From assembly GCF_900637185.1 (NCBI RefSeq), contig NZ_LR134352.1:2904001-2968000 (forward strand): a DNA stretch of 64,000 bases, read 5' to 3'. Made by a program: the position numbers and the translations under genes. Below the pieces are notes generated by a model. It was not told the origin of the DNA. It worked only from the letters and a program-made list of their open reading frames with translations, and ran no database searches. Below, in pieces: positions 38,304 to 56,965 of the stretch; position 1 is the first letter of the stretch, and each line of letters begins with the position of its first letter. This DNA comes from Nocardia asteroides (GTDB lineage Bacteria; Actinomycetota; Actinomycetes; Mycobacteriales; Mycobacteriaceae).

Positions 38304-39455
38304 TCAGGCCGCGCGGGCGGGGCGCAGGCCCCAGGCATCGGCGAGCAGCCGGTGCGATTCCAGGCGGTCGGCGTGGTCGTGGGTGATGGTGGTGACCAGC
38401 AGCTCGGCCGCGCCGGTCAGCGCCGCCAACGCCGCGAGGCGGGTGGTGACGGTGTCCGGGGCGCCGACGATCTGGGCGGCGAGCCGGTCCTCGACCAGGC
38501 GGTGCTGGTCGGGGGTGAGCGGGGCCGCGGTGGCGGGGTCGAGGTACTCGCTCGCGCCGGAGCCGCTGCGGATGCTGTGCACCCAGTGCCCGTAGGTACT
38601 CGCGTGGTGCCGGGCGGTGACCTCGTCGGCGGCCACCACGACATCCGCCGACACGATGACGTGCGGTTCGGCGAGGGTGGCCGACGGCCGGAACGCCGCC
38701 CGATACGCCCGCACCGCGTCCAGCGCGGTCCCCGGCGCCACGTGATACGCCGCCGCGAACGGCAGTCCGAGCCGGCCTGCCAGCTCCGCGCTCTCCCCGG
38801 CGGTGCTGCCGAACAGCCACAGCTCCACCTGCGCGCCCTCACCCGGAACCGCGTGCAGCGCAACCTCGTTGGACCCGACGTAGCTGCCGTCGAGCAGCGC
38901 GCGCACCTCGTCGACCTGATCGGCGAAGTCGGGCGCTTCGGCGCCGGGCTGCTGCAACGCCTCGATCGAGGCGACGAACTTGGATCGGTCGGTGATCCCG
39001 CGCGGGTCGAACGGCGGCGGTACCACCACCCCGTCGCGGATCTCGGTGCGGCCGGTGACCGCGTCCAGCACCGGATGCCCGCCCTTGGCGGTGGAGGCCT
39101 CGGCCCCGAACTGGCCGCGCCGATGCCCCGAGCGGCCCAGCCCCAGATCGAGCCGGCCCGGTGCCACCGCGTCGACGGTGCCGAACGCCTCGACGATCGA
39201 GGCCGAGGTGTGGTGCCCCACTTGCACGGCGCCGGTGCCGACCCGGATCCGGGAGGTGGCCGCGGCCACCAGCCCGAGCAGGGTCAGCGAGGACGAGCTG
39301 GCCACCGCGACGAAGTGGTGTTCGGCCAGCCAATACCGGTGGTAGCCCCACTGTTCGGCGTGCCGGGCCAGGTCGACGGTGTTGCGCACCGCCTGCGCGG
39401 CGCTGGATCCGGCGCTGATCGGCGAGAGGTCCAGGATCGAGAGCGGAACGGTCAC
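38304..39455 (-). CDS. LLM-class flavin-dependent oxidoreductase (third of operon)
   Basis: The 383-residue protein is a luciferase-like TIM barrel of the single-component group often labelled MsnO8: PLSILDLSPISAGSSAAQA at the start, YWLAEHHFVAVAS, VGTGAVQVGHHTS and LDLGLGRSGHRRGQ. It should use reduced FMN and oxygen on a small substrate. GTG 39455 overlaps the DUF1684 stop. It is the last gene of the riboswitch operon and is followed by a hairpin. Confidence 0.85.
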   Translation of the reverse strand: MTVPLSILDLSPISAGSSAAQAVRNTVDLARHAEQWGYHRYWLAEHHFVAVASSSSLTLLGLVAAATSRIRVGTGAVQVGHHTSASIVEAFGTVDAVAPGRLDLGLGRSGHRRGQFGAEASTAKGGHPVLDAVTGRTEIRDGVVVPPPFDPRGITDRSKFVASIEALQQPGAEAPDFADQVDEVRALLDGSYVGSNEVALHAVPGEGAQVELWLFGSTAGESAELAGRLGLPFAAAYHVAPGTALDAVRAYRAAFRPSATLAEPHVIVSADVVVAADEVTARHHASTYGHWVHSIRSGSGASEYLDPATAAPLTPDQHRLVEDRLAAQIVGAPDTVTTRLAALAALTGAAELLVTTITHDHADRLESHRLLADAWGLRPARAA

Positions 39456-40261
39456 AGCGCCGGATCCTGTTCGCCCGCTTCGATCGCCACCCGCAGCCGG
39501 TTCGCGGCCGGCGCCACCGGGCAGGTCGCGTACGGGGTGAAGGCGCAGGGCAGATTCACCGCCCGGTTGAAGTCCAGCGTCACGGTGCCGTCCGCCGCGA
39601 CCGCGCCGATCGCGAGCGAGCGCGCGGCCGGGTAGGTGGTGACACCGCTGGTGGCGTCGGTGAACAGCACCTTCAGCTCACCGGGCGTGCCGAAGGCGAC
39701 CAGCGTCTCGGTGACCTCGCCGATCCGGAACTCGATCGTGCCCGCCGCGCTGTGATGATGCGCGAGCCCGTCCACGACCGCGCCGGTGGTGACGGTGCGA
39801 GCGGTGTCGAAGGCGGTGAACCGGCCGGTCACCACCCAGCGCGGATCGACCGGGTAGTGCGGGACCCCGGTGAACGCCGCCAGCGCCGGCGCCGCCGGAT
39901 CGTGCACCCGCACCGCGAACTGTCCGGAGCGCCGGATCACCTCGAACACCCGCCGCTCGTTGACCACGGTCAGCCCGGGCGCCCCCTCGACGGGGACGAG
40001 GATCTGCACGCCGCCGATCCGTTCGCCGTCGACGTCGAGCAGGTCGGCGGGCTGGGCGGTGATGAACACCTTCTCGTCGGTGACCCACCAGGTGCCGGGC
40101 AGACCGTCGAGCCGCTCCGGGCTGTCGGTGAGCCAGTGCAGCCCGGCCAGGCTGAGCCAGCCCAGCGGCTCGCGCAGGCCGTCCTCGCGGGCCTCGTGCC
40201 AGCGCCGCCAGTCGTCGGTGAACGGGGTTGCGGTGCTGGTGGATTCGACCGTGATCGTCAT
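39452..40261 (-). CDS. DUF1684 domain protein
   Basis: The 269-residue protein reads WHEAREDGLREPLGWLSLAGLHWL near the N-terminus and ends with TLDFNRAVNLPCAFTPYATCP-VAP, both characteristic of DUF1684. It is soluble with a beta-rich middle and no signal peptide. The cysteine and RAVNLPCAF block is the most conserved part and may form the active site, but no reaction is established. It is coupled by 4-base overlaps to a monooxygenase on each side, so it likely handles their substrate or product. Confidence 0.8.
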   Translation of the reverse strand: MTITVESTSTATPFTDDWRRWHEAREDGLREPLGWLSLAGLHWLTDSPERLDGLPGTWWVTDEKVFITAQPADLLDVDGERIGGVQILVPVEGAPGLTVVNERRVFEVIRRSGQFAVRVHDPAAPALAAFTGVPHYPVDPRWVVTGRFTAFDTARTVTTGAVVDGLAHHHSAAGTIEFRIGEVTETLVAFGTPGELKVLFTDATSGVTTYPAARSLAIGAVAADGTVTLDFNRAVNLPCAFTPYATCPVAPAANRLRVAIEAGEQDPAL

Positions 40262-41625
40262 GACGCGCGTGCTCCTTCGGCGACGGTGGGATGCTGGGGA
40301 TGGCGCAGACCGAGGTGGTCGCGCAGCGTGGTGCCGGTGTAGGCGGTGCGGAAACTGCCGCGTTCCTGCAGTTCCGGCACCACCCGGTCGACGAATTCGT
40401 CGAGACCGGCAGGGGTCAGGTGCGGGACGAGGATGAAGCCGTCGGCCGCGTCGGACTGCACGTAGTGGTCGATCTGCTCGGCGACCTGGGCGGGTGTGCC
40501 GATGAACTGCTGACGGCTGGTGACCTCGATGATGAGTTCGCGGATGCTGAGGTTGTCCGCCTCGGCCTGCGCCCGCCAGGCCTTCGCCACGGCCAGTGGG
40601 TCTTTCGCGTGCCGGACCCGGCCGCGGGTGATCTCGGCGGTGGCGTCGGGTTCGATGTCGGGCAGCGGGCCCTCGGGGTCGTAGGCCGACAGGTCGCGGC
40701 CCCACACCTGTTCGAGGAAGGCGAGCGCGGTCTGCGGGCTCACCTGCTGGTAGCGGATGTGCCGGGCCCGCTCGTGCGCCTCGGCCTCGGTGTCGCCGAG
40801 CACGAACGTGGCGGCCGGGAAGACCAGCAGTTCGTCGCGGTCGCGGCCGTATTTCGCGAGCCTGCCCTTGATGTCGGCGTAGAAGGCGCGGCCCGCCTCG
40901 AGGGTGCCGTGCGCGGTGAAGATCGCGTCGGCGGTGCGGGCGCCGAACTCGCGGCCCTCGTCGGAATCGCCCGCCTGCAACAGCACCGGGTGCCCCTGCG
41001 GGCTCGGCGGCACCACGAACGGCGCCTCGATGTCGAACTGGCTGCTGTGGAACGCGGCGCCGGGCACGTCGTGGGCGAAGATCCCGCGCTCCCGGTCGAC
41101 CACCAGCGCGTCGGCGGGCCAGCTGTCCCACAGCGCCCTGGTCGCCTCGACCACCTCGGCCGCGCGCCGGTACCGGTCGCCGTGCTCGAGGTAGCCGCCG
41201 CGGCGGAAGTTCTCGCCGGTGAACGCGTCGGAGGAGGTGACGACATTCCAGGCGGCGCGCCCGCCGGAGAGATGATCGAGCGCGGCGAACTGCTTGGCCA
41301 GCTCGAACGGCTCGTTGTAGGTGCTGTTGATGGTGCCCGCCAGCCCCAGCCGTTCGGTGACCGCGGCCACCGCGTTGAGCACGGTGAGCGTGTCGGGCCT
41401 GCCGACGACGTCCAGGTCGTGGATCCGGCCGCGGTGCTCGCGCAGCCGCAGGCCCTCGGCCAGGAAGAAGAAGTCGAACAGGCCGCGCTCCGCGGTGCGC
41501 GCCAGATGCTCGAACGAGGCGAAGTCCACCTGCGACTTCGACGCCGGATCGGCCCAGACGGTGGTGTTGTTGACGCCGGGGAAGTGCGCGGCGAGATGGA
41601 CTTGCTTGCGGGGTTTCGCGCTCAC
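40258..41625 (-). CDS. NtaA/DmoA-type FMN-dependent monooxygenase
   Basis: The 455-residue enzyme belongs to the NtaA/SnaA/DszA/DmoA branch of the luciferase-like family: QVHLAAHFPGVNNTTVWADP, FFFLAEGLRL, GTINSTYNEPFELAKQFA, HLSGGRAAWNVVTSS and the phosphate loop LLQAGDSDEGREFGA. This branch includes enzymes that oxidise dibenzothiophene sulfone and dimethyl sulfide, and needs a separate flavin reductase. GTG 41625 overlaps the previous stop. No reductase gene is in the operon. Confidence 0.88.
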   Translation of the reverse strand: MSAKPRKQVHLAAHFPGVNNTTVWADPASKSQVDFASFEHLARTAERGLFDFFFLAEGLRLREHRGRIHDLDVVGRPDTLTVLNAVAAVTERLGLAGTINSTYNEPFELAKQFAALDHLSGGRAAWNVVTSSDAFTGENFRRGGYLEHGDRYRRAAEVVEATRALWDSWPADALVVDRERGIFAHDVPGAAFHSSQFDIEAPFVVPPSPQGHPVLLQAGDSDEGREFGARTADAIFTAHGTLEAGRAFYADIKGRLAKYGRDRDELLVFPAATFVLGDTEAEAHERARHIRYQQVSPQTALAFLEQVWGRDLSAYDPEGPLPDIEPDATAEITRGRVRHAKDPLAVAKAWRAQAEADNLSIRELIIEVTSRQQFIGTPAQVAEQIDHYVQSDAADGFILVPHLTPAGLDEFVDRVVPELQERGSFRTAYTGTTLRDHLGLRHPQHPTVAEGARAS

Positions 41626-42727
41626 AGCGTGGCTCCTCGGCGGGCGTAGCGGCTGGTGGGACGGGGGAGGCCGAGACGGTCGCGCAGGGTGCCCGCCGGG
41701 CGTGCGGGGTGCGCGGTCAGCGCGGCCAGGGTGGCGTGCAGGGCCAGCGGCCGCAGGACGACGCCGTCGGCGATGCCGGAGGCGGCGATCTCGGCCAGCA
41801 GTTCGTCGAGGTCGGCGACGGTGCCCGCGTGGAGCAGCTCGGGCGCGGGGGCGGCGTGCCAGCGGTCCAGTTCGTCGACCTCGGCGCGGGCCCGCGCGGC
41901 CGAATCCGCCAGGTGCACCGGCAGATCCAGCAGGACGCGGACCGTGTCGGGGTCGCGTCCCGCCGTGGCCAGGGTGGCGCGCAGGGCGACCCGGCGGGCG
42001 GCCGCGGTGGCGAGGTCGGGTGCGCTGATCCGCAGCAGGTCGCCGCGCCGGACGGCCACGTCGATGGCCACCGGGTCGTCGGCGCGCACCGTCACGATCG
42101 GCTGTCCCTGCGGGGAGCGCGGCGTGATCGACGGGCCCTTCACCGCGAAGTGCGCGCCGGTGAAGTCGATGTAGTGCAGGCGGTCGCGGTCGATGAACCG
42201 GCCGGTGGGGACGTCGCGGATCTCCGCGTCGTCCTCCCAGCTGTCCCACAGCCGGGTGACCACCTCGATCGCCTCGTCGGCCTCCTGCCACAGCGACACG
42301 TCGGTCTGGACGTCCTTGCGCCCGAACGCCTTCGCCTGCGCGGTGCCGGGGGAGACGCCCACCTCCCAGCCCGCGCGGCCCAGGCTCGCGAAGTCGAGCG
42401 CGGCGATCGCCTTGGACACGTGGAACGGTTCGGTGTGGGTCACCGGGACCTGCGGGATGAGCGCGATCCGGCGGGTGATCGGCGCGGTGCGGGCGGCGAT
42501 CGCGACCGCGTCGAGCCTGCCGCGGGTGACGGTGGTGCCGCCCGGTTGCAGCCCGAACGAGTCGGGCAGGAACACCGCGTCGGCGCCGAGCTGCTCGGCC
42601 CTGGTGACCACCTCGGTCCAGTAGCCGGCGGTGAACAGGTCCTCGGCGCGCGAATCGGCGCGCCGCCAGGACGCGGGATGTACGCCGGTGCCCCCGGTTT
42701 CGATGCCGAGGAACAAGCCGTCGGTGC

Positions 42728-42731
<4 letters not shown>
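41622..42731 (-). CDS. LLM-class flavin-dependent oxidoreductase (first of operon)
   Basis: The 369-residue luciferase-like barrel reads [51 protein letters not shown] and later [15 protein letters not shown]. It is only distantly related to the other two monooxygenases in the operon, so the three probably perform different steps. ATG 42731 overlaps the ABC ATPase stop and its own stop overlaps the next start, both by 4 bases. Confidence 0.82.
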
Positions 42732-44337
<1,606 letters not shown>

Positions 44338-44341
<4 letters not shown>

Positions 44342-45234
44342 CGATTCTCCGCCTTTCCGACGGACCGGCCCAGTCGCTGCGCCGAGAGCACCACGGCGAC
44401 GATGACCAGGCCCGGCAGGGTGGTCAGCCACCACGCCGAGGCGAGGAAGTTGCGGCCCTCCGAGATCAGCGAACCCCATTCCGGGGTGGGCGGTTTGGTG
44501 CCGTAGCCCAGGAAGCTCAGCGACGACACCGCCAGCACCGCCATCCCGAACTCCACCGCGGCCAGCGCCAGCACCGGCTGCACCGAGTTCGGCAGGACGT
44601 GGCGAGCCAGCACCGCGTACCAGCGGACGCCCGAGGCGTGCGCGGCCTCCACATACGGGGCGTGCCGCACCCGTAGCACCTCCGAGCGCATCACCCGGGC
44701 GAAGTTGGCGATCAGCGAGATACCCACGGCGAGCGCGACATTGCGGGTGCCGAACCCGAGCGCCGTCACCAGCGCCAGCGAGAGCAGCAGCGCGGGGATC
44801 GACAGCAGCACGTCGACGACGCGCATGATCGCGGTGTCGACGATCCCGCCCGCCGCACCCGCGAGCAGGCCGAACAGCGACCCGACCACCAGCGCGATAC
44901 CGACCGCGGTGAGCGTCGCCGTGAGCGAGAGGCCGGCGCCGTGCACCATCCGGGTGTAGAGGTCGCGGCCGAGATTGTCGGTGCCGAACCAGTGTGCGGC
45001 GCTGGGGGATTGGAACTTCTCGGCGGGTACCCCGGTGAGCGGGTCACCGGAGGCGAACACCGACGGCACCAGGGCCCAGCCGATCGCGACGACCAGCACC
45101 GCGCTCGCCGCGACGAGCCCGAGATGCCCGCGGACCCAGCGCACGACGACGCCGAACCCGGCCGAGCGCGCGGTGCCCTCGCCTGCCGCCGTCGCGGGAG
45201 CGACCGTGCTACGGCGTACGAGAAGGTCGACCAT
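44338..45234 (-). CDS. ABC transporter permease, DppC type
   Basis: The 298-residue membrane protein has an N-terminal helix, an extracellular loop with [19 protein letters not shown] typical of DppC, and four to five more helices. The ATPase-contact loop reads [21 protein letters not shown]. It pairs with the DppB-type permease 35 bases upstream. An extended frame upstream of ATG 45234 overlaps dppB and is not supported. Confidence 0.92.
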
Positions 45235-45269
45235 GGTCGCTCCCTTCGGTCTCGGAGGAATGGGAAACG

Positions 45270-46265
45270 TCAGGCACCGGACACCGCCTTCGCGGCGGTG
45301 GTCCCGGAGCTGTCCGCCCGCGCGGTCCGGCGGGTGCCGGTGATCCGCGGATCGAGCAGCGGATACAGCAGGTCCACCGCCAGATTCACCAGCACGAAGA
45401 TCAGCGCCGACAGGAGTACGACGCCCTGCACCACGGGAATGTCCTGATTGAGCACCGAGGTCTGGGTCAACCGGCCCACGCCCGCGCGGGCGAACACCGA
45501 CTCGACCACCACCGACCCGGCCAGCATCGTGCCGACCAGCACGCCCGCGATGGTGAACGCGGGCACGCTCGCCAGCCGCGCCACGTGCCTGCGCTGCACC
45601 CACCAGCGCGAGGCGCCCTTGGCCAGCGCCACCTCGGTGAACGGCTGCCGCCACGTCTGTGCCAGCCCGGCGGCCAGCACCTGCGCGATCACCGCGCCGA
45701 TCGGCAGGGCCAGGGTGAGCGCGGGCAACAGGGTGCCGCGCAGGCCGGTGCCGCCGAACGCGGGGAACCAGTGCAGCCGGAACGAGAACAGCTGCAACAG
45801 GATCAGCCCGGTCCAGAAGGTCGGCACCGACACCCCCAGCGGCGGCAGCGCGGCCAGCGCGTCGCGCAGCCACGGCCGCCGCGTGTAGGTGGCCGCGAAG
45901 GCCAGCGCGGTGCCACCGAGGGTGGCGAACAGCAGAGCCAGCGCGGCCAGTCCGAGGGTGGCGGGCAGCACGTCGCCGATGGTCTGGGTCACCGGCGCGC
46001 CGGTGCTGATCGAGCGCCCCAGGTCACCGGTGACGGCGTTGCCGAGCGCGGTCACGTACTGCTCCCACAGCGGCTTGTCCAGGCCGTACCTGGCCTGCAG
46101 CTCGGCGATCGCGGCCTGGTCGACCGGGGTGCCGACGCCGCCGCCGTCGGCGGCCATCGAGACCGGATCGGCGGGCAGCAGGTACAGCACCACGAAGGAC
46201 AGCGTGAACGCCGCCCACAACACCCAGAGCGCCTGCAGCACGCGCGAACCCACGTAGCGGAGCAT
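45270..46265 (-). CDS. ABC transporter permease, DppB type
   Basis: The 331-residue membrane protein has six helices, starting RYVGSRVLQALWVLWAAFTLSF. The DppB-type loop YGLDKPLWEQYVTALGNAVTGDLG follows (given here as GLDKPLWEQY), and the coupling loop reads EVALAKGASRWWVQRRHV. It starts 2 bases after the binding-protein stop. Together with its partner it forms the channel for a small, probably non-peptide ligand. Confidence 0.92.
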   Translation of the reverse strand: MLRYVGSRVLQALWVLWAAFTLSFVVLYLLPADPVSMAADGGGVGTPVDQAAIAELQARYGLDKPLWEQYVTALGNAVTGDLGRSISTGAPVTQTIGDVLPATLGLAALALLFATLGGTALAFAATYTRRPWLRDALAALPPLGVSVPTFWTGLILLQLFSFRLHWFPAFGGTGLRGTLLPALTLALPIGAVIAQVLAAGLAQTWRQPFTEVALAKGASRWWVQRRHVARLASVPAFTIAGVLVGTMLAGSVVVESVFARAGVGRLTQTSVLNQDIPVVQGVVLLSALIFVLVNLAVDLLYPLLDPRITGTRRTARADSSGTTAAKAVSGA

Positions 46266-46267
46266 GC

Positions 46268-47938
46268 TCAGCGCCCGCTCAGCCAGGTGTCGAAGAACTG
46301 CAGCCGGGCCGAGGCCTCGAACGTCAGGTCCTGGGTGGTCGCCGCGGCGCCGATCGCCTGCGACAGCTCGACCGTGGGAACGTAGAGACCGTTGTCGAGG
46401 ATCTGCCGCTGCGCGGTGCCGAGCAGCGCGGCGCGAGCGGCCGGGTCGCTGGTGGCCAGCTGCTTGTCCAGGGTTTCGTCCAGTGCCGGGATCGGGCCGC
46501 GCGCGTTGAGATTGCGGCCGCCCAGCGAGAAGCTCGTGCGCAGGATGTCACCGTCGGCGCGGGTCGAGTTGCCGTAGATGGCGTCGTAGTCCTTGGTGCC
46601 CATCCGCGCGGTGGACTCCGGACCCGAGACCAGGTCCAGCTTCAGCTCCACCCCGACCTGGCGCAGCTGCTGCTGCACCAGCTCCAGGATCGCCTGGTTG
46701 CCGGCGAACACCTGGCTGAAGGTCACCGAGAAGCTCAGGCGCTCACCGTCCTTGGTCCGGATGCCGTCGCCGCCGGGCACCCAGCCCGCCTGGTCCAGGA
46801 TCGACTTCGCCTTGGCCGGGTCGTGCGGCAGCTGCGCCGAGAGATCGGTGTAGGCGGGCGTGGCCGAGGCCAGCGACGAGGTCGCGAACTTGAACTGCGG
46901 GCCCAGCACGGTGTCGACCAGCTGCTTGCGGTCGAGCGCGGGCAGCAGTGCCTGGCGCACCGCCGGGTCACGCAGCGGACCGCGATTCACATTGGGCTGC
47001 AAGCCGAACGGGGTGCCCGGGTTCGACGTGGACAGGATGCGACCGCCCACGGCCTCGATCTGCGGCGCGTCCTGCGGCAGCGCGTCGCTGATCGCGTCGA
47101 GCTGCCCGGACACCAGGCTGCCGGTGCGCACGCCCGACTCGGGGACCACGGTGAACTCGATCCGGTCCAGATAGGCCTCGCCCTCGTGGCCGAACACCGC
47201 CGAACCCCAGTGGTATCCGGCCCGCTTGGCCAGCGTCGCCGAGACATCCTGCTTGTAGGCCGCGTAGGTGAACGGGCCGCTGCCGATGTTGTCGCCCGCG
47301 CACCTGGCCTCGGCCGGCTTGGCGTTGGTGGCCTGGGCGAGGATGCCCAGCTGCGGCGTCGAGGAGGCCTGCAGGAACTGGGCGTTGGGCTGGCTGAACT
47401 CGACGCGGGCGGTGAGCTTGTCGACCGCGGTGGTGCCCACGTAGTTGGTCAGGTAGCTCGCGCCCAGCGGCGCCTTGGCGCCACCGAGCTTGACGACGGC
47501 GTCGAAGGTGTCGCGCACCGAATCGGCGGTCAGCGCGGTGCCGTCGCTGAAGGTCACGCCGTCGGCGAGCTTGAAGGTGAACACCTTCGCGTCGGGACTG
47601 ACCTCCCAGCTCTGCGCCAGCCACGGGGTGATGGCCCCGGTCTTCGGATCCTGATCGGTGAGCGAGTCGACGATCTGGCGGGCCACGTAGATGGTCTGGT
47701 TCGTGCCCGCCTGCGCCGGGTCCGAGCAGGAGGGTGCCTGCGAGAGTCCGTAGCGCAGGGTGCCGCCGGGCTGCGGCGGACCGGCCTGCCCACCCGGGCC
47801 ACCACTGTCACTGCCGCAGGCCACCACCGAGGTGGCGACGGCGAGGACGCCGGCGACGGCGGCGAGACGATGACGGGGACCGATCACGGGGTGACTCCAG
47901 GGAATACGCGGCCTGCGGCCAGGGGTGGGAATTTTCAT
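46268..47938 (-). CDS. ABC transporter substrate-binding lipoprotein (family 5)
   Basis: The 556-residue protein is the first gene of the operon. The signal ends in a lipobox with Cys (SVVACGSDSGG), so it is anchored on the outer face of the membrane. The mature part is a DppA/OppA-like fold: GGTLRYGLSQAPSCSDP, the WEVSPDAKVFTFKLADGV block and FSDGTALTADSV. Three non-adjacent cysteines may stabilise the fold. The ligand cannot be read off; operon context favours a sulfur compound. ATG 47938 lies 30 bases after the riboswitch; an in-frame ATG 11 codons upstream lacks a ribosome site. Confidence 0.88.
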   Translation of the reverse strand: MKIPTPGRRPRIPWSHPVIGPRHRLAAVAGVLAVATSVVACGSDSGGPGGQAGPPQPGGTLRYGLSQAPSCSDPAQAGTNQTIYVARQIVDSLTDQDPKTGAITPWLAQSWEVSPDAKVFTFKLADGVTFSDGTALTADSVRDTFDAVVKLGGAKAPLGASYLTNYVGTTAVDKLTARVEFSQPNAQFLQASSTPQLGILAQATNAKPAEARCAGDNIGSGPFTYAAYKQDVSATLAKRAGYHWGSAVFGHEGEAYLDRIEFTVVPESGVRTGSLVSGQLDAISDALPQDAPQIEAVGGRILSTSNPGTPFGLQPNVNRGPLRDPAVRQALLPALDRKQLVDTVLGPQFKFATSSLASATPAYTDLSAQLPHDPAKAKSILDQAGWVPGGDGIRTKDGERLSFSVTFSQVFAGNQAILELVQQQLRQVGVELKLDLVSGPESTARMGTKDYDAIYGNSTRADGDILRTSFSLGGRNLNARGPIPALDETLDKQLATSDPAARAALLGTAQRQILDNGLYVPTVELSQAIGAAATTQDLTFEASARLQFFDTWLSGR

Positions 47939-47967
47939 GCGACAGCGAACCTCGCCACGTCTCTCCT

Positions 47968-48055
47968 CCATCGAACCCGGCGGAAGCACCCACACCCGGG
48001 AACGGGCGGGTTGCTGCGACGTCATGGAGCCAGGTCTCTCGGTCGCTCTGGATGG
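47968..48055 (-). promoter_or_regulatory. SAM riboswitch (S-box/SAM-I type) leader
   Basis: Read leftward, the 88-base element closes with CCATC/GATGG (P1). P2 is built from GCGAC/GTCGC with an inner GAG/CTC. Invariant-like segments follow in the S-box order: GAGAGACCTGGCTC, CATGACG, CAGCAACCC, then a hairpin ACCCG/CGGGT (P3) and GGGTGCTTCC. These follow the known SAM-I consensus (GAGGGA-TGGCCC, TGA, GCAACC, GGTGCTA-TTCC). It lies directly before the operon's first gene. I see no clear T-run terminator, so control may act on translation. Confidence 0.8.
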
Positions 48056-48269
48056 TTGCCGCGGCCACGAGTGCCGGTGCCGAATCAGCATGTGGCACCG
48101 CCGGGATACTTCACAACGGTAAGGATCAGCGTGAGCGCAGAGCTTGGCTCCGGAGTGTCACCGGTGCACACTGTCCGCGACGCGCCGACGTCGCGAGGGC
48201 CTCGCCTGCGCGGATCCGGCCGGTCGGCGGCGTAGCGTCGGATCTGTCCGCGTCGATGAGGAGTGCGTC

Positions 48270-56746: not shown

Positions 56747-56965
56747 CCCGGAGCACGCGAGTGCTGCGAGGCCTCTGCCCGGGCGCGGACCCTGACGTAC
56801 TTCCCCGACGCCAGGTGCCGCGCCTCGGTCAGAGACCTCGACGCATTCGCCGGTTCCGCCGCAAGGGCGGTGGAACAGCTTCATTCGGACCGCAATCTCA
56901 TTCGTAAAGCACTGTGTGGCAAGGCGACCCGTCTGCGACGCGAGGCAGTATCCCGGGAGGTCGAG

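Follow-up and report, generated by a model that had tools for sequence, protein, structure and literature searches.

A probable organosulfur-scavenging operon behind a P4-less SAM-I riboswitch in Nocardia asteroides

The ytn/cmo cluster of Bacillus subtilis, which includes an amino-acid importer, offers the closest comparison for the locus described here. Its S-alkylcysteine salvage route (CmoO, CmoJ) and the scm (yxe) pathway for S-(2-succino)cysteine both share flavin monooxygenases with our locus, and the order of steps established there is acetylation, CmoO, CmoJ, sulfenate reduction and deacetylation (PMC10863075, PMC12757645). The GNAT of the Bacillus systems is also found in relatives of Nocardia, and a cysteine-type product would be expected here too. 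In contrast to the Bacillus systems, the Nocardia operon has a SAM-I RNA, a Dpp-type importer, a pair of monooxygenases (LD and LC) and a DUF1684 protein, and lacks both a GNAT and an amino-acid importer; relatives carry an FAD oxidase, and the cluster proteins scanned included no M20 deacetylase.

A second comparison is with Ssu alkanesulfonate and Dsz dibenzothiophene desulfurisation, where FMNH2 monooxygenases cleave C-S bonds, the role predicted here for LC and LD. Importer class and gene content differ from both systems, as does the substrate in the case of Dsz. At the RNA level, the leader shares P1, P2, P3, the pseudoknot and the core sequence with the canonical SAM-I riboswitch (S-box), but it lacks P4, its P1 overlaps GGAGG, and its target is a set of scavenging genes. 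How organosulfur use is switched in rhodococci and nocardiae is relevant to fuel desulfurisation, and the operon supplies a concrete functional setting for DUF1684, on which a full-text literature search found one paper.

Leader RNA and translational layout

An earlier note on the window (the whole 64,000-nucleotide stretch of NZ_LR134352.1 that was analysed) had proposed an 88-base SAM riboswitch leader ahead of an eight-gene operon (Table 1). The Rfam search agreed on its identity, with a match to RF00162 at 54.2 bits (E 1e-9; gathering 44.4) and no other SAM-I turning up in the genome at E 0.001, and corrected the length, as the aptamer measures 94 nt. It scores 103 bits with a custom model whose training set includes the aptamer itself. 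SAM-IV, also a SAM sensor, was rejected as the leader's identity: the genome holds five RF00634 matches, two of them preceding metY- and metZ-like genes by our own reading, and none lies at this site. SAM-I/IV (RF01725) was likewise rejected, with no genome match at E 0.001.

Table 1. Features of the operon and its leader, in window coordinates
Feature	Position	Strand	Basis
SAM-I riboswitch aptamer (RF00162), P4-less form, pseudoknot CUGG/CCGG	47965..48058	-	covariance model
GATGGAGG: P1 3' strand (GATGG) overlapping Shine-Dalgarno (GGAGG)	47965..47972	-	sequence reading
Leader mini-ORF, 7 codons (GTG...TGA), stop overlaps ATG 47938	47935..47958	-	sequence reading
Deletion scar of lost monooxygenase gene LB, first codons fused to last	47884..47938	-	comparison with L039, L043, L044
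SBP, family-5 substrate-binding lipoprotein	46268..47887, alternative start 47938	-	PF00496, 248.4 bits
Permease 1, Dpp/Nik-type	45270..46265	-	PF00528, PF19300
Permease 2, Dpp/Nik-type	44338..45234	-	PF00528
4-base overlap permease 2/ATPase	44341/44338	-	
Fused double ABC ATPase	42728..44341	-	PF00005 in two stretches, PF08352
4-base overlap ATPase/LD	42731/42728	-	
LD, NtaA/DmoA-like luciferase-like monooxygenase, short LC partner	41622..42731	-	PF00296
4-base overlap LD/LC	41625/41622	-	
LC, NtaA/DmoA family FMN-dependent monooxygenase	40258..41625	-	TIGR03860; best PDB matches YtnJ, DszA
4-base overlap LC/DUF1684	40261/40258	-	
DUF1684 protein, Cx7C motif (C239, C247)	39452..40261	-	PF07920, 143.8 bits
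4-base overlap DUF1684/LA	39455/39452	-	
LA, MsnO8-family luciferase-like monooxygenase	38304..39455	-	TIGR03558

Across 39 aptamers, P1, P2, P3 and the pseudoknot are kept by compensatory change: paired cells make up 99.8% of 893, and both-side changes occur in 8 of the 23 pairs, one of them in the pseudoknot, and in 37 cells compared with 5.9 in shuffles. A second measure, counting further pair types, was not above the shuffles (132/500). The P4 hairpin is missing from the aligned aptamers of the family, and we therefore name the form a P4-less SAM-I variant; three order-level aptamers have P4.

The 3' strand of P1 runs into the Shine-Dalgarno sequence. Of the 57 family leaders compared, 55 share this overlap, and in 53 the start codon lies 4-12 nt past GGAGG. 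With P4 missing and P1 continuing into the Shine-Dalgarno, control is probably translational. We do not call this arrangement unique: GATGAGG, likewise purine-rich beside P1, stands in 27 of 29 leaders from other families. For the 30 best SAM-I loci that the order has outside this family, one cluster accounts for 28 of 29 first genes; the member of it that was tested is a threonine synthase. A mini-ORF comparable to that of the present leader occurs in L010/L039.

A degraded or non-functional riboswitch remnant, with some other regulator driving expression, would fit the modest score (54 bits against 72-90 for the listed matches from the rest of the order, where weaker ones exist), the missing P4, and the lack of a SAM-I match in 21 of the 79 Nocardia genomes having an LC or DUF1684 orthologue. 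A CymR-like protein (peg394) has, moreover, been put forward as a candidate regulator in Rhodococcus qingshengii (PMC8557817). The compensatory changes in the core helices, the retained Shine-Dalgarno overlap and the presence of SAM-I in 13 of the family's 31 genera all argue against such a remnant, which we consider improbable.

Downstream of the leader, the ATG at 47938 once opened a monooxygenase gene, LB, that has since been deleted; its final codons can still be read in a different frame, and the genome holds no close LB (best match 36%). The scar leads to a misplaced transporter start; the SBP probably starts at GTG 47887, giving 539 aa as in several orthologues.

Operon genes and protein families

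Pfam matches recovered all eight of the minus-strand genes previously proposed, in the transcribed order SBP_bac_5 lipoprotein, two BPD permeases, double ABC ATPase, LD, LC, DUF1684 and LA, and the ORF coordinates bear out the five 4-base start/stop overlaps. The SBP and permease 1 are spaced by 2 nt and the two permeases by 35 nt.

The three luciferase-like monooxygenases had been described as unrelated. Three are indeed present, but LD is a homologue of LC (28% over 232 aa, E 3e-22; both match the NtaA/DmoA model), and the two travel as a pair. LC passes the TIGR03860 (NtaA/DmoA) cut-off of 279.7 with 424.5 bits, while LD, at 200.8 bits, lies under it and is compared with this family only as working like it. 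LA passes TIGR03558 (MsnO8; 288.7 bits, cut-off 166.95). The best PDB match of LC is YtnJ (E 8e-87), which we take to be CmoJ, and LC lies about equally near DszA and YtnJ.

DUF1684 matches PF07920 well above gathering (25), and the Cx7C motif recurs in 118 of 120 listed homologues. Its fold did not yield a function: the AlphaFold model (mean pLDDT 82.1, pTM 0.69) matches, at E <0.001, only the haloarchaeal DUF1684 structures 4dlh, 4fj4, 2lok and 2lnu, none of which has a named function. A product-handling role, as suggested earlier, is plausible. Strict coupling of DUF1684 to LC looks less likely because some operons have only one of the two: 11 SAM-I operons show DUF1684 and LA but no LD-LC, and 5 have LC and LA without DUF1684.

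For the transporter, SBP and permeases fall under every NCBIfam cut-off, with nickel and opine models among the best matches; the SBP matches TIGR04028 best (318.9 bits, cut-off 468.5), and SsuA (TIGR01728) is not among its matches. The fused ATPase passes the NikD, NikE, dipeptide and PhnC cut-offs, with a score that sums its two halves. A nickel or metallophore importer, whose monooxygenases would process the chelator with sulfur incidental, could explain why the permeases match the Opp2B/Opp2C nickel models best and the ATPase passes NikD and NikE. Against it, SBP and permeases fall under the NikA, NikB and NikC cut-offs (169.4/393, 223.8/447 and 225.6/358.45), the ATPase score is a sum of halves, the operon is probably under SAM-I control, and a cystine-type importer and Ssu-like genes occur behind the same RNA family. 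We consider a nickel role very unlikely.

Linkage and gene content across relatives

SAM-I was found in 60 of 98 genomes of the genus, and 53 of these 60 have an LC or DUF1684 orthologue downstream on the same strand within 14 kb. This linkage is not chance, by a Fisher test in which genomes were treated without regard to relatedness. The operon can do without the RNA, as the 21 SAM-I-less genomes among 79 show; in eight SAM-less loci no Rfam match attained the gathering score, and one retains a 24-bit remnant by the custom model. Genes of fetched loci came from a codon-score script that misses genes in lower-GC genomes, so that locus gene counts are lower bounds; 12 loci were rechecked by tblastn. 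The labels DUF2867, SDR, GGPS and METF on locus genes are our own presumed ones, not taken from a family search.

Rhodococcus and other genera of the family have these genes divided among separate units, of which several carry a SAM-I of their own; in the other genera this holds for the amino-acid-importer unit and the Dpp unit alike. Among the genes of relatives' clusters are a cystine-type ABC importer (cystine-importer families give the amino-acid unit its best NCBIfam matches, under cut-offs), an FAD oxidase with a DAO domain and, in many cases, the GNAT. The argument from cystine import and GNAT leans on relatives, because the N. asteroides genome has neither a close LB nor a close amino-acid SBP (best 29%). 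Among 51 LC loci outside Nocardia and Rhodococcus, 17 have a GNAT, 14 an amino-acid permease and 1 a SAM-I, and DUF1684 lies within three genes of LC in 10.

Ssu-like genes also appear. In L166, from another genus, SAM-I precedes SsuA (above cut-off) and then SsuC-, SsuB- and SsuD-like genes; in the Streptomyces locus L229, SsuE (above cut-off) is the second gene ahead of the LD-LC pair, separated from it by a single ORF call; and a protein we read as SsuD-like occurs in the clusters of L152 and L187. Taken together, gene content and linkage suggest that sulfur scavenging is under RNA-based control in Nocardia, Rhodococcus and relatives.

Proposed substrate and pathway, and published induction in a relative

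The earlier proposal of organosulfur scavenging repressed by SAM gains support from the 53/60 linkage, SAM-I before Ssu-like genes, the cystine-type importer and GNAT of relatives, SsuE near LD-LC in Streptomyces, and a neighbouring unit induced without sulfate in R. qingshengii (PMC8557817). To its candidate substrates (sulfone, sulfonate, thioether) we would add S-modified cysteine, the option that the gene set of relatives favours. We think it likely that the operon scavenges organosulfur under translational SAM-I control, acting on an S-modified cysteine-type substrate through a pathway of LA, LD-LC and DUF1684.

Under this model, a drop in SAM would open P1 of the P4-less aptamer and free the overlapped Shine-Dalgarno, allowing translation of the operon, which the start/stop overlaps may partly couple. 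The Dpp/Nik-type ABC importer would take up some small sulfur-containing molecule, the likeliest candidates being S-modified cysteines and their peptide-like relatives. As family and gene set suggest, LA would oxidise the sulfur in the manner of CmoO, and the FMNH2-fed LD-LC pair would cleave the C-S bond in the manner of CmoJ. DUF1684, a Cx7C thiol protein, might conceivably reduce or pass on the thiol or sulfenate product, and the freed sulfur would feed cysteine, methionine and SAM, closing the switch. A bolder version would make a distinct P4-less SAM-I subclass, with its Shine-Dalgarno within P1, the chief element acting in cis to control organosulfur scavenging in Nocardia, Rhodococcus and their relatives, and DUF1684 a Cx7C redox partner reducing the sulfenate or thiol product; we regard it as doubtful.

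The operon could instead degrade a sulfonate, sulfone or sulfonate ester in an Ssu-, Sfn- or Seu-like manner, importing larger sulfonated compounds and yielding sulfite. Such a reading draws on DszA among the best PDB matches of LC, weak LC matches to the SfnG and SsuD models, and the Ssu-like genes of L166, L152 and L187; it fits poorly with the cystine-type importer, GNAT and amino-acid-type FAD oxidase of relatives, and Dpp/Nik-type importers are, to our knowledge, not usual sulfonate carriers. We consider it possible, though unlikely. SeuABC of Corynebacterium glutamicum were considered as possible orthologues and set aside; a term search for them within PMC2580772 returned nothing.

Published data for R. 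qingshengii IGTS8 bear on the scavenging model. There, the proteins peg5783-5785 (TcyC, FliY/TcyA, sarcosine oxidase) show higher abundance with dibenzothiophene than with sulfate (PMC8557817). The same paper reports that homologues of CysB, Cbl, CmbR and McbR are absent, gives no SAM data, does not list the Dpp-LLM unit in its own Table 1 and never uses the word riboswitch. A SAM-sensing RNA before scavenging genes would offer a testable answer for part of the IGTS8 sulfur regulon. Separately, peg5732 of IGTS8 is ScmK, for which we claim no link to a SAM-I unit. Our matching of peg5783-5785 to the neighbouring importer/oxidase unit uses gene order and annotation rather than sequence; the order aaATP-aaSBP-DAO occurs in L188, conspecific with IGTS8. 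In the L188 genome, one SAM-I precedes the Dpp unit and a second lies 4.7 kb upstream.

Gene content of the operon and its leader

Searches of the window sequence and of protein families bore out the eight genes and five 4-base overlaps described in the earlier note, and the SAM riboswitch proposed in front of them was recovered by covariance model at 54.2 bits (gathering score 44.4). This leader is the sole SAM-I match found in the 6.98-Mb genome, which also carries five SAM-IV riboswitches (L099-L103). Judged from the downstream proteins, two of the latter precede putative sulfhydrylase genes (one metZ-like, behind a rhodanese gene, and one metY-like), and the others a putative cysteine desulfurase-like gene, an ABC binding protein gene and one further gene; a covariance search of the genome with RF01725 gave no match.

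Coordinates of the features discussed
Feature	Sequence	Positions	Strand
Eight-gene operon	window	38304-48055	-
SAM-I match	window	48058-47965	-
LB remains, first codons	window	from ATG 47938	
LB remains, last codons	window	to 47884	
Probable SBP start	window	GTG 47887	
Mini-ORF	window	47935-47958	
mraW RNA (RF01746)	window	56753-56858	
Two divergent SAM-I	L242	2449-2814	

The three luciferase-like monooxygenases claimed in that note are present, but they are not all unrelated, as LD is a homologue of LC (28%, E 3e-22). PDB entry 7e36 contains two different chains, and in structure-database sequence matches LD is closer to chain A and LC to chain B. The search with LC gave 80 named loci, and LD stays within two genes of LC in 50/51 of those outside Nocardia/Rhodococcus and in 24/29 of those inside, so LD and LC probably form one two-protein enzyme.

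In the relative's locus L039, the first gene after the riboswitch encodes a further monooxygenase, LB, and comparison with this locus indicates that only the first and last codons of LB remain in the window, the binding-protein gene (SBP) probably starting at the GTG listed in the table; the best LB match in the genome reached 36%. Mini-ORFs directly following the riboswitch Shine-Dalgarno (SD) sequence, with a stop overlapping the next start (ATGA), were seen in L020-L022, in L010/L039 and in the window. The mraW RNA (65.8 bits), which we take to be a marker of the cell-division/wall cluster, places the operon near that cluster.

Aptamer covariation and overlap with the Shine-Dalgarno sequence

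Covariation was assessed in 39 aptamers, 36 from the family and three from the order. Pairing was retained in 99.8% of cells, and both sides had changed in 8 of 23 pairs, with 37 such cells vs 5.9 after shuffling; the count of further pair types did not rise above the shuffled level. Helix P4 is missing from the family's aptamers.

The 57 family leaders compared are the best-scoring matches and include many close kin. In 55 of them the 3' strand of helix P1 runs on as GATGG[AG][AG]G, and in 53 GGAGG is followed 4-12 nt later by a start codon. We infer from these sequences that P1 would mask the SD, which overlaps the paired part by two nucleotides. The order's other families were represented by the 30 best loci among the order's SAM-I matches, and there (L069-L098 except L076 and L084) a longer SAM-I precedes one protein cluster (28/29 first genes), of which the member tested is a threonine synthase (TIGR00260, over cut-off). 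The GATGG[AG][AG]G pattern occurs in 0/29 scored leaders of these families and GGAGG followed by a start codon in 4/29; GATGAGG, likewise purine-rich beside P1, occurs in 27/29, so that SD overlap may be common to these leaders also, in other letters.

Linkage of the RNA to the operon

SAM-I was found, one each, in 60 of 98 genomes of the genus (59 over cut-off). In 53 of these 60, the RNA is followed within 14 kb, on its own strand, by an orthologue of LC (74% identity or more; 40 genomes) or of DUF1684 (55% or more; 45 genomes). The exceptions are G003, where another gene set follows the RNA; G013, G071, G082 and G094, where the orthologue sits on another contig; and G088 and G091, where neither orthologue was found. 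SAM-I occurs in 58/79 genomes with either orthologue vs 2/19 without (Fisher p 6e-7, relatedness ignored). The operon can outlive its switch, since 21 of the 79 operon genomes have no SAM-I match and L107 retains a 24-bit remnant by custom covariance model. Eight SAM-less loci, some of which may stop short of far enough upstream, held no Rfam family at gathering score.

Loci were fetched for 36 of the 60 genomes with up to 13.6 kb (L031-L066), plus ten more. Between RNA and SBP, automatic gene calls over the 36 loci gave, as lower bounds, an amino-acid permease in 21, its ATPase in 21, LB in 19, an amino-acid SBP in 16 and a GNAT acetyltransferase (PF00583) in 13. The best NCBIfam matches of this amino-acid importer are to the cystine system (permease, TcyN, cystine SBP), all below cut-offs. 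DUF1684 and LA persist with no LD-LC seen in eleven SAM-I operons, and LC and LA persist without DUF1684 in five, a mosaic that argues against strict DUF1684-LC pairing. Some operons are shortened from the riboswitch side. In L053, L059, L063 and L114 the RNA persists before a deletion; the shortened operons hold a cut LC with DUF1684 and LA, and L063 no recognised operon gene.

Across the family, SAM-I occurs in 86/301 genomes (own genus included) and 13/31 genera, with up to four per genome, often clustered. Twenty stretches chosen from these matches carry the same genes as split units, several with their own SAM-I, and add an FAD oxidase (DAO, PF01266). In L166, SAM-I precedes SsuA (222.1 bits, cut-off 163.5) together with SsuC-, SsuB- and SsuD-like genes below their own cut-offs; L156 and L167 showed no recognised sulfur gene behind SAM-I, and L169 and L170 have small proteins there, that of L170 (another genus) being OsmC-like, below cut-off. 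L163 and, within the genus, L031 share another SAM-I-linked set, made up of a 2OG-Fe oxygenase, a cyclodipeptide-synthase-like protein, an MFS transporter, an LA-like monooxygenase and a Dpp-type importer; family scans of L163 matched the first two to PF13640 and TIGR04539.

By custom covariance model, SAM-I was detected at E <0.01 in 17/29 Nocardia/Rhodococcus LC loci and in 1/51 others (Pseudonocardia L242), some loci ending short of the riboswitch position. The two SAM-I of L242 (Pseudonocardia sp. CNS-139) lie ~175 nt apart, beside the cluster. Gene calls in the 51 loci gave, as lower bounds, GNAT in 17, DUF1684 in 16, an amino-acid permease in 14 and a Dpp-type SBP in 13.

Predicted chemistry and expression in a relative

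PDB matches of LC include YtnJ (E 8e-87), which we take to be CmoJ, and DszA (2e-81); the Bacillus cluster has a cystine importer. L229 carries, two genes ahead of LD-LC, an SsuE FMN reductase (216.9 bits, cut-off 164.05), and L228 a protein of SsuE-like appearance directly before LD. The operon's SBP and permeases fall below all NCBIfam cut-offs; its fused ATPase, scored as the sum of its two halves, exceeds those of NikD, NikE, dipeptide and PhnC systems. In B. subtilis, S-alkylcysteine use is described as acetylation, CmoO oxidation, CmoJ cleavage to a sulfenic acid, reduction and deacetylation (PMC10863075, PMC12757645).

DUF1684 could reduce sulfenate or handle a thiol. Its named nearest homologues are from Nocardia. 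Of 120 listed homologues, 118 carry the Cx7C motif and the other two keep its second cysteine. In PMC9426492, a haloarchaeal DUF1684 protein is assigned to a thiol-relay group by its conserved Cx7C and by close thiols in modelling and alignment, and the redox regulator OxsR binds at its promoter region. A full-text literature search found DUF1684 named in one paper.

A partial literature search, which does not establish absence from print, found no publication joining SAM riboswitch, luciferase-like monooxygenase and actinobacteria; a broader query gave three papers, whose titles concern other subjects. The available text of a regulon survey includes Corynebacteriaceae and Mycobacteriaceae among its Actinobacteria and lacks the words 'nocardia' and 'monooxygenase' (PMC3766115). 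For R. qingshengii IGTS8, sections of PMC8557817 report no CysB, Cbl, CmbR or McbR homologues, propose a CymR-like protein (peg394) as candidate regulator, and do not report on SAM itself; PMC9426449 describes this regulation as unclear.

Table 1 of PMC8557817, which does not list the Dpp-monooxygenase unit, gives peg5783 (TcyC), peg5784 (FliY/TcyA) and peg5785 (sarcosine oxidase) at >log2 2 on dibenzothiophene vs sulfate. By gene order and annotation, these correspond to a unit of the conspecific IEGM 1359 (L188), where the amino-acid ATPase and SBP, DAO and GNAT genes are followed by SAM-I and then by SBP, P1, P2, ATPase, LD, LC, DUF1684 and LA. A second SAM-I lies 4.7 kb upstream in IEGM 1359 and, by analogy with L154, presumably precedes the importer.
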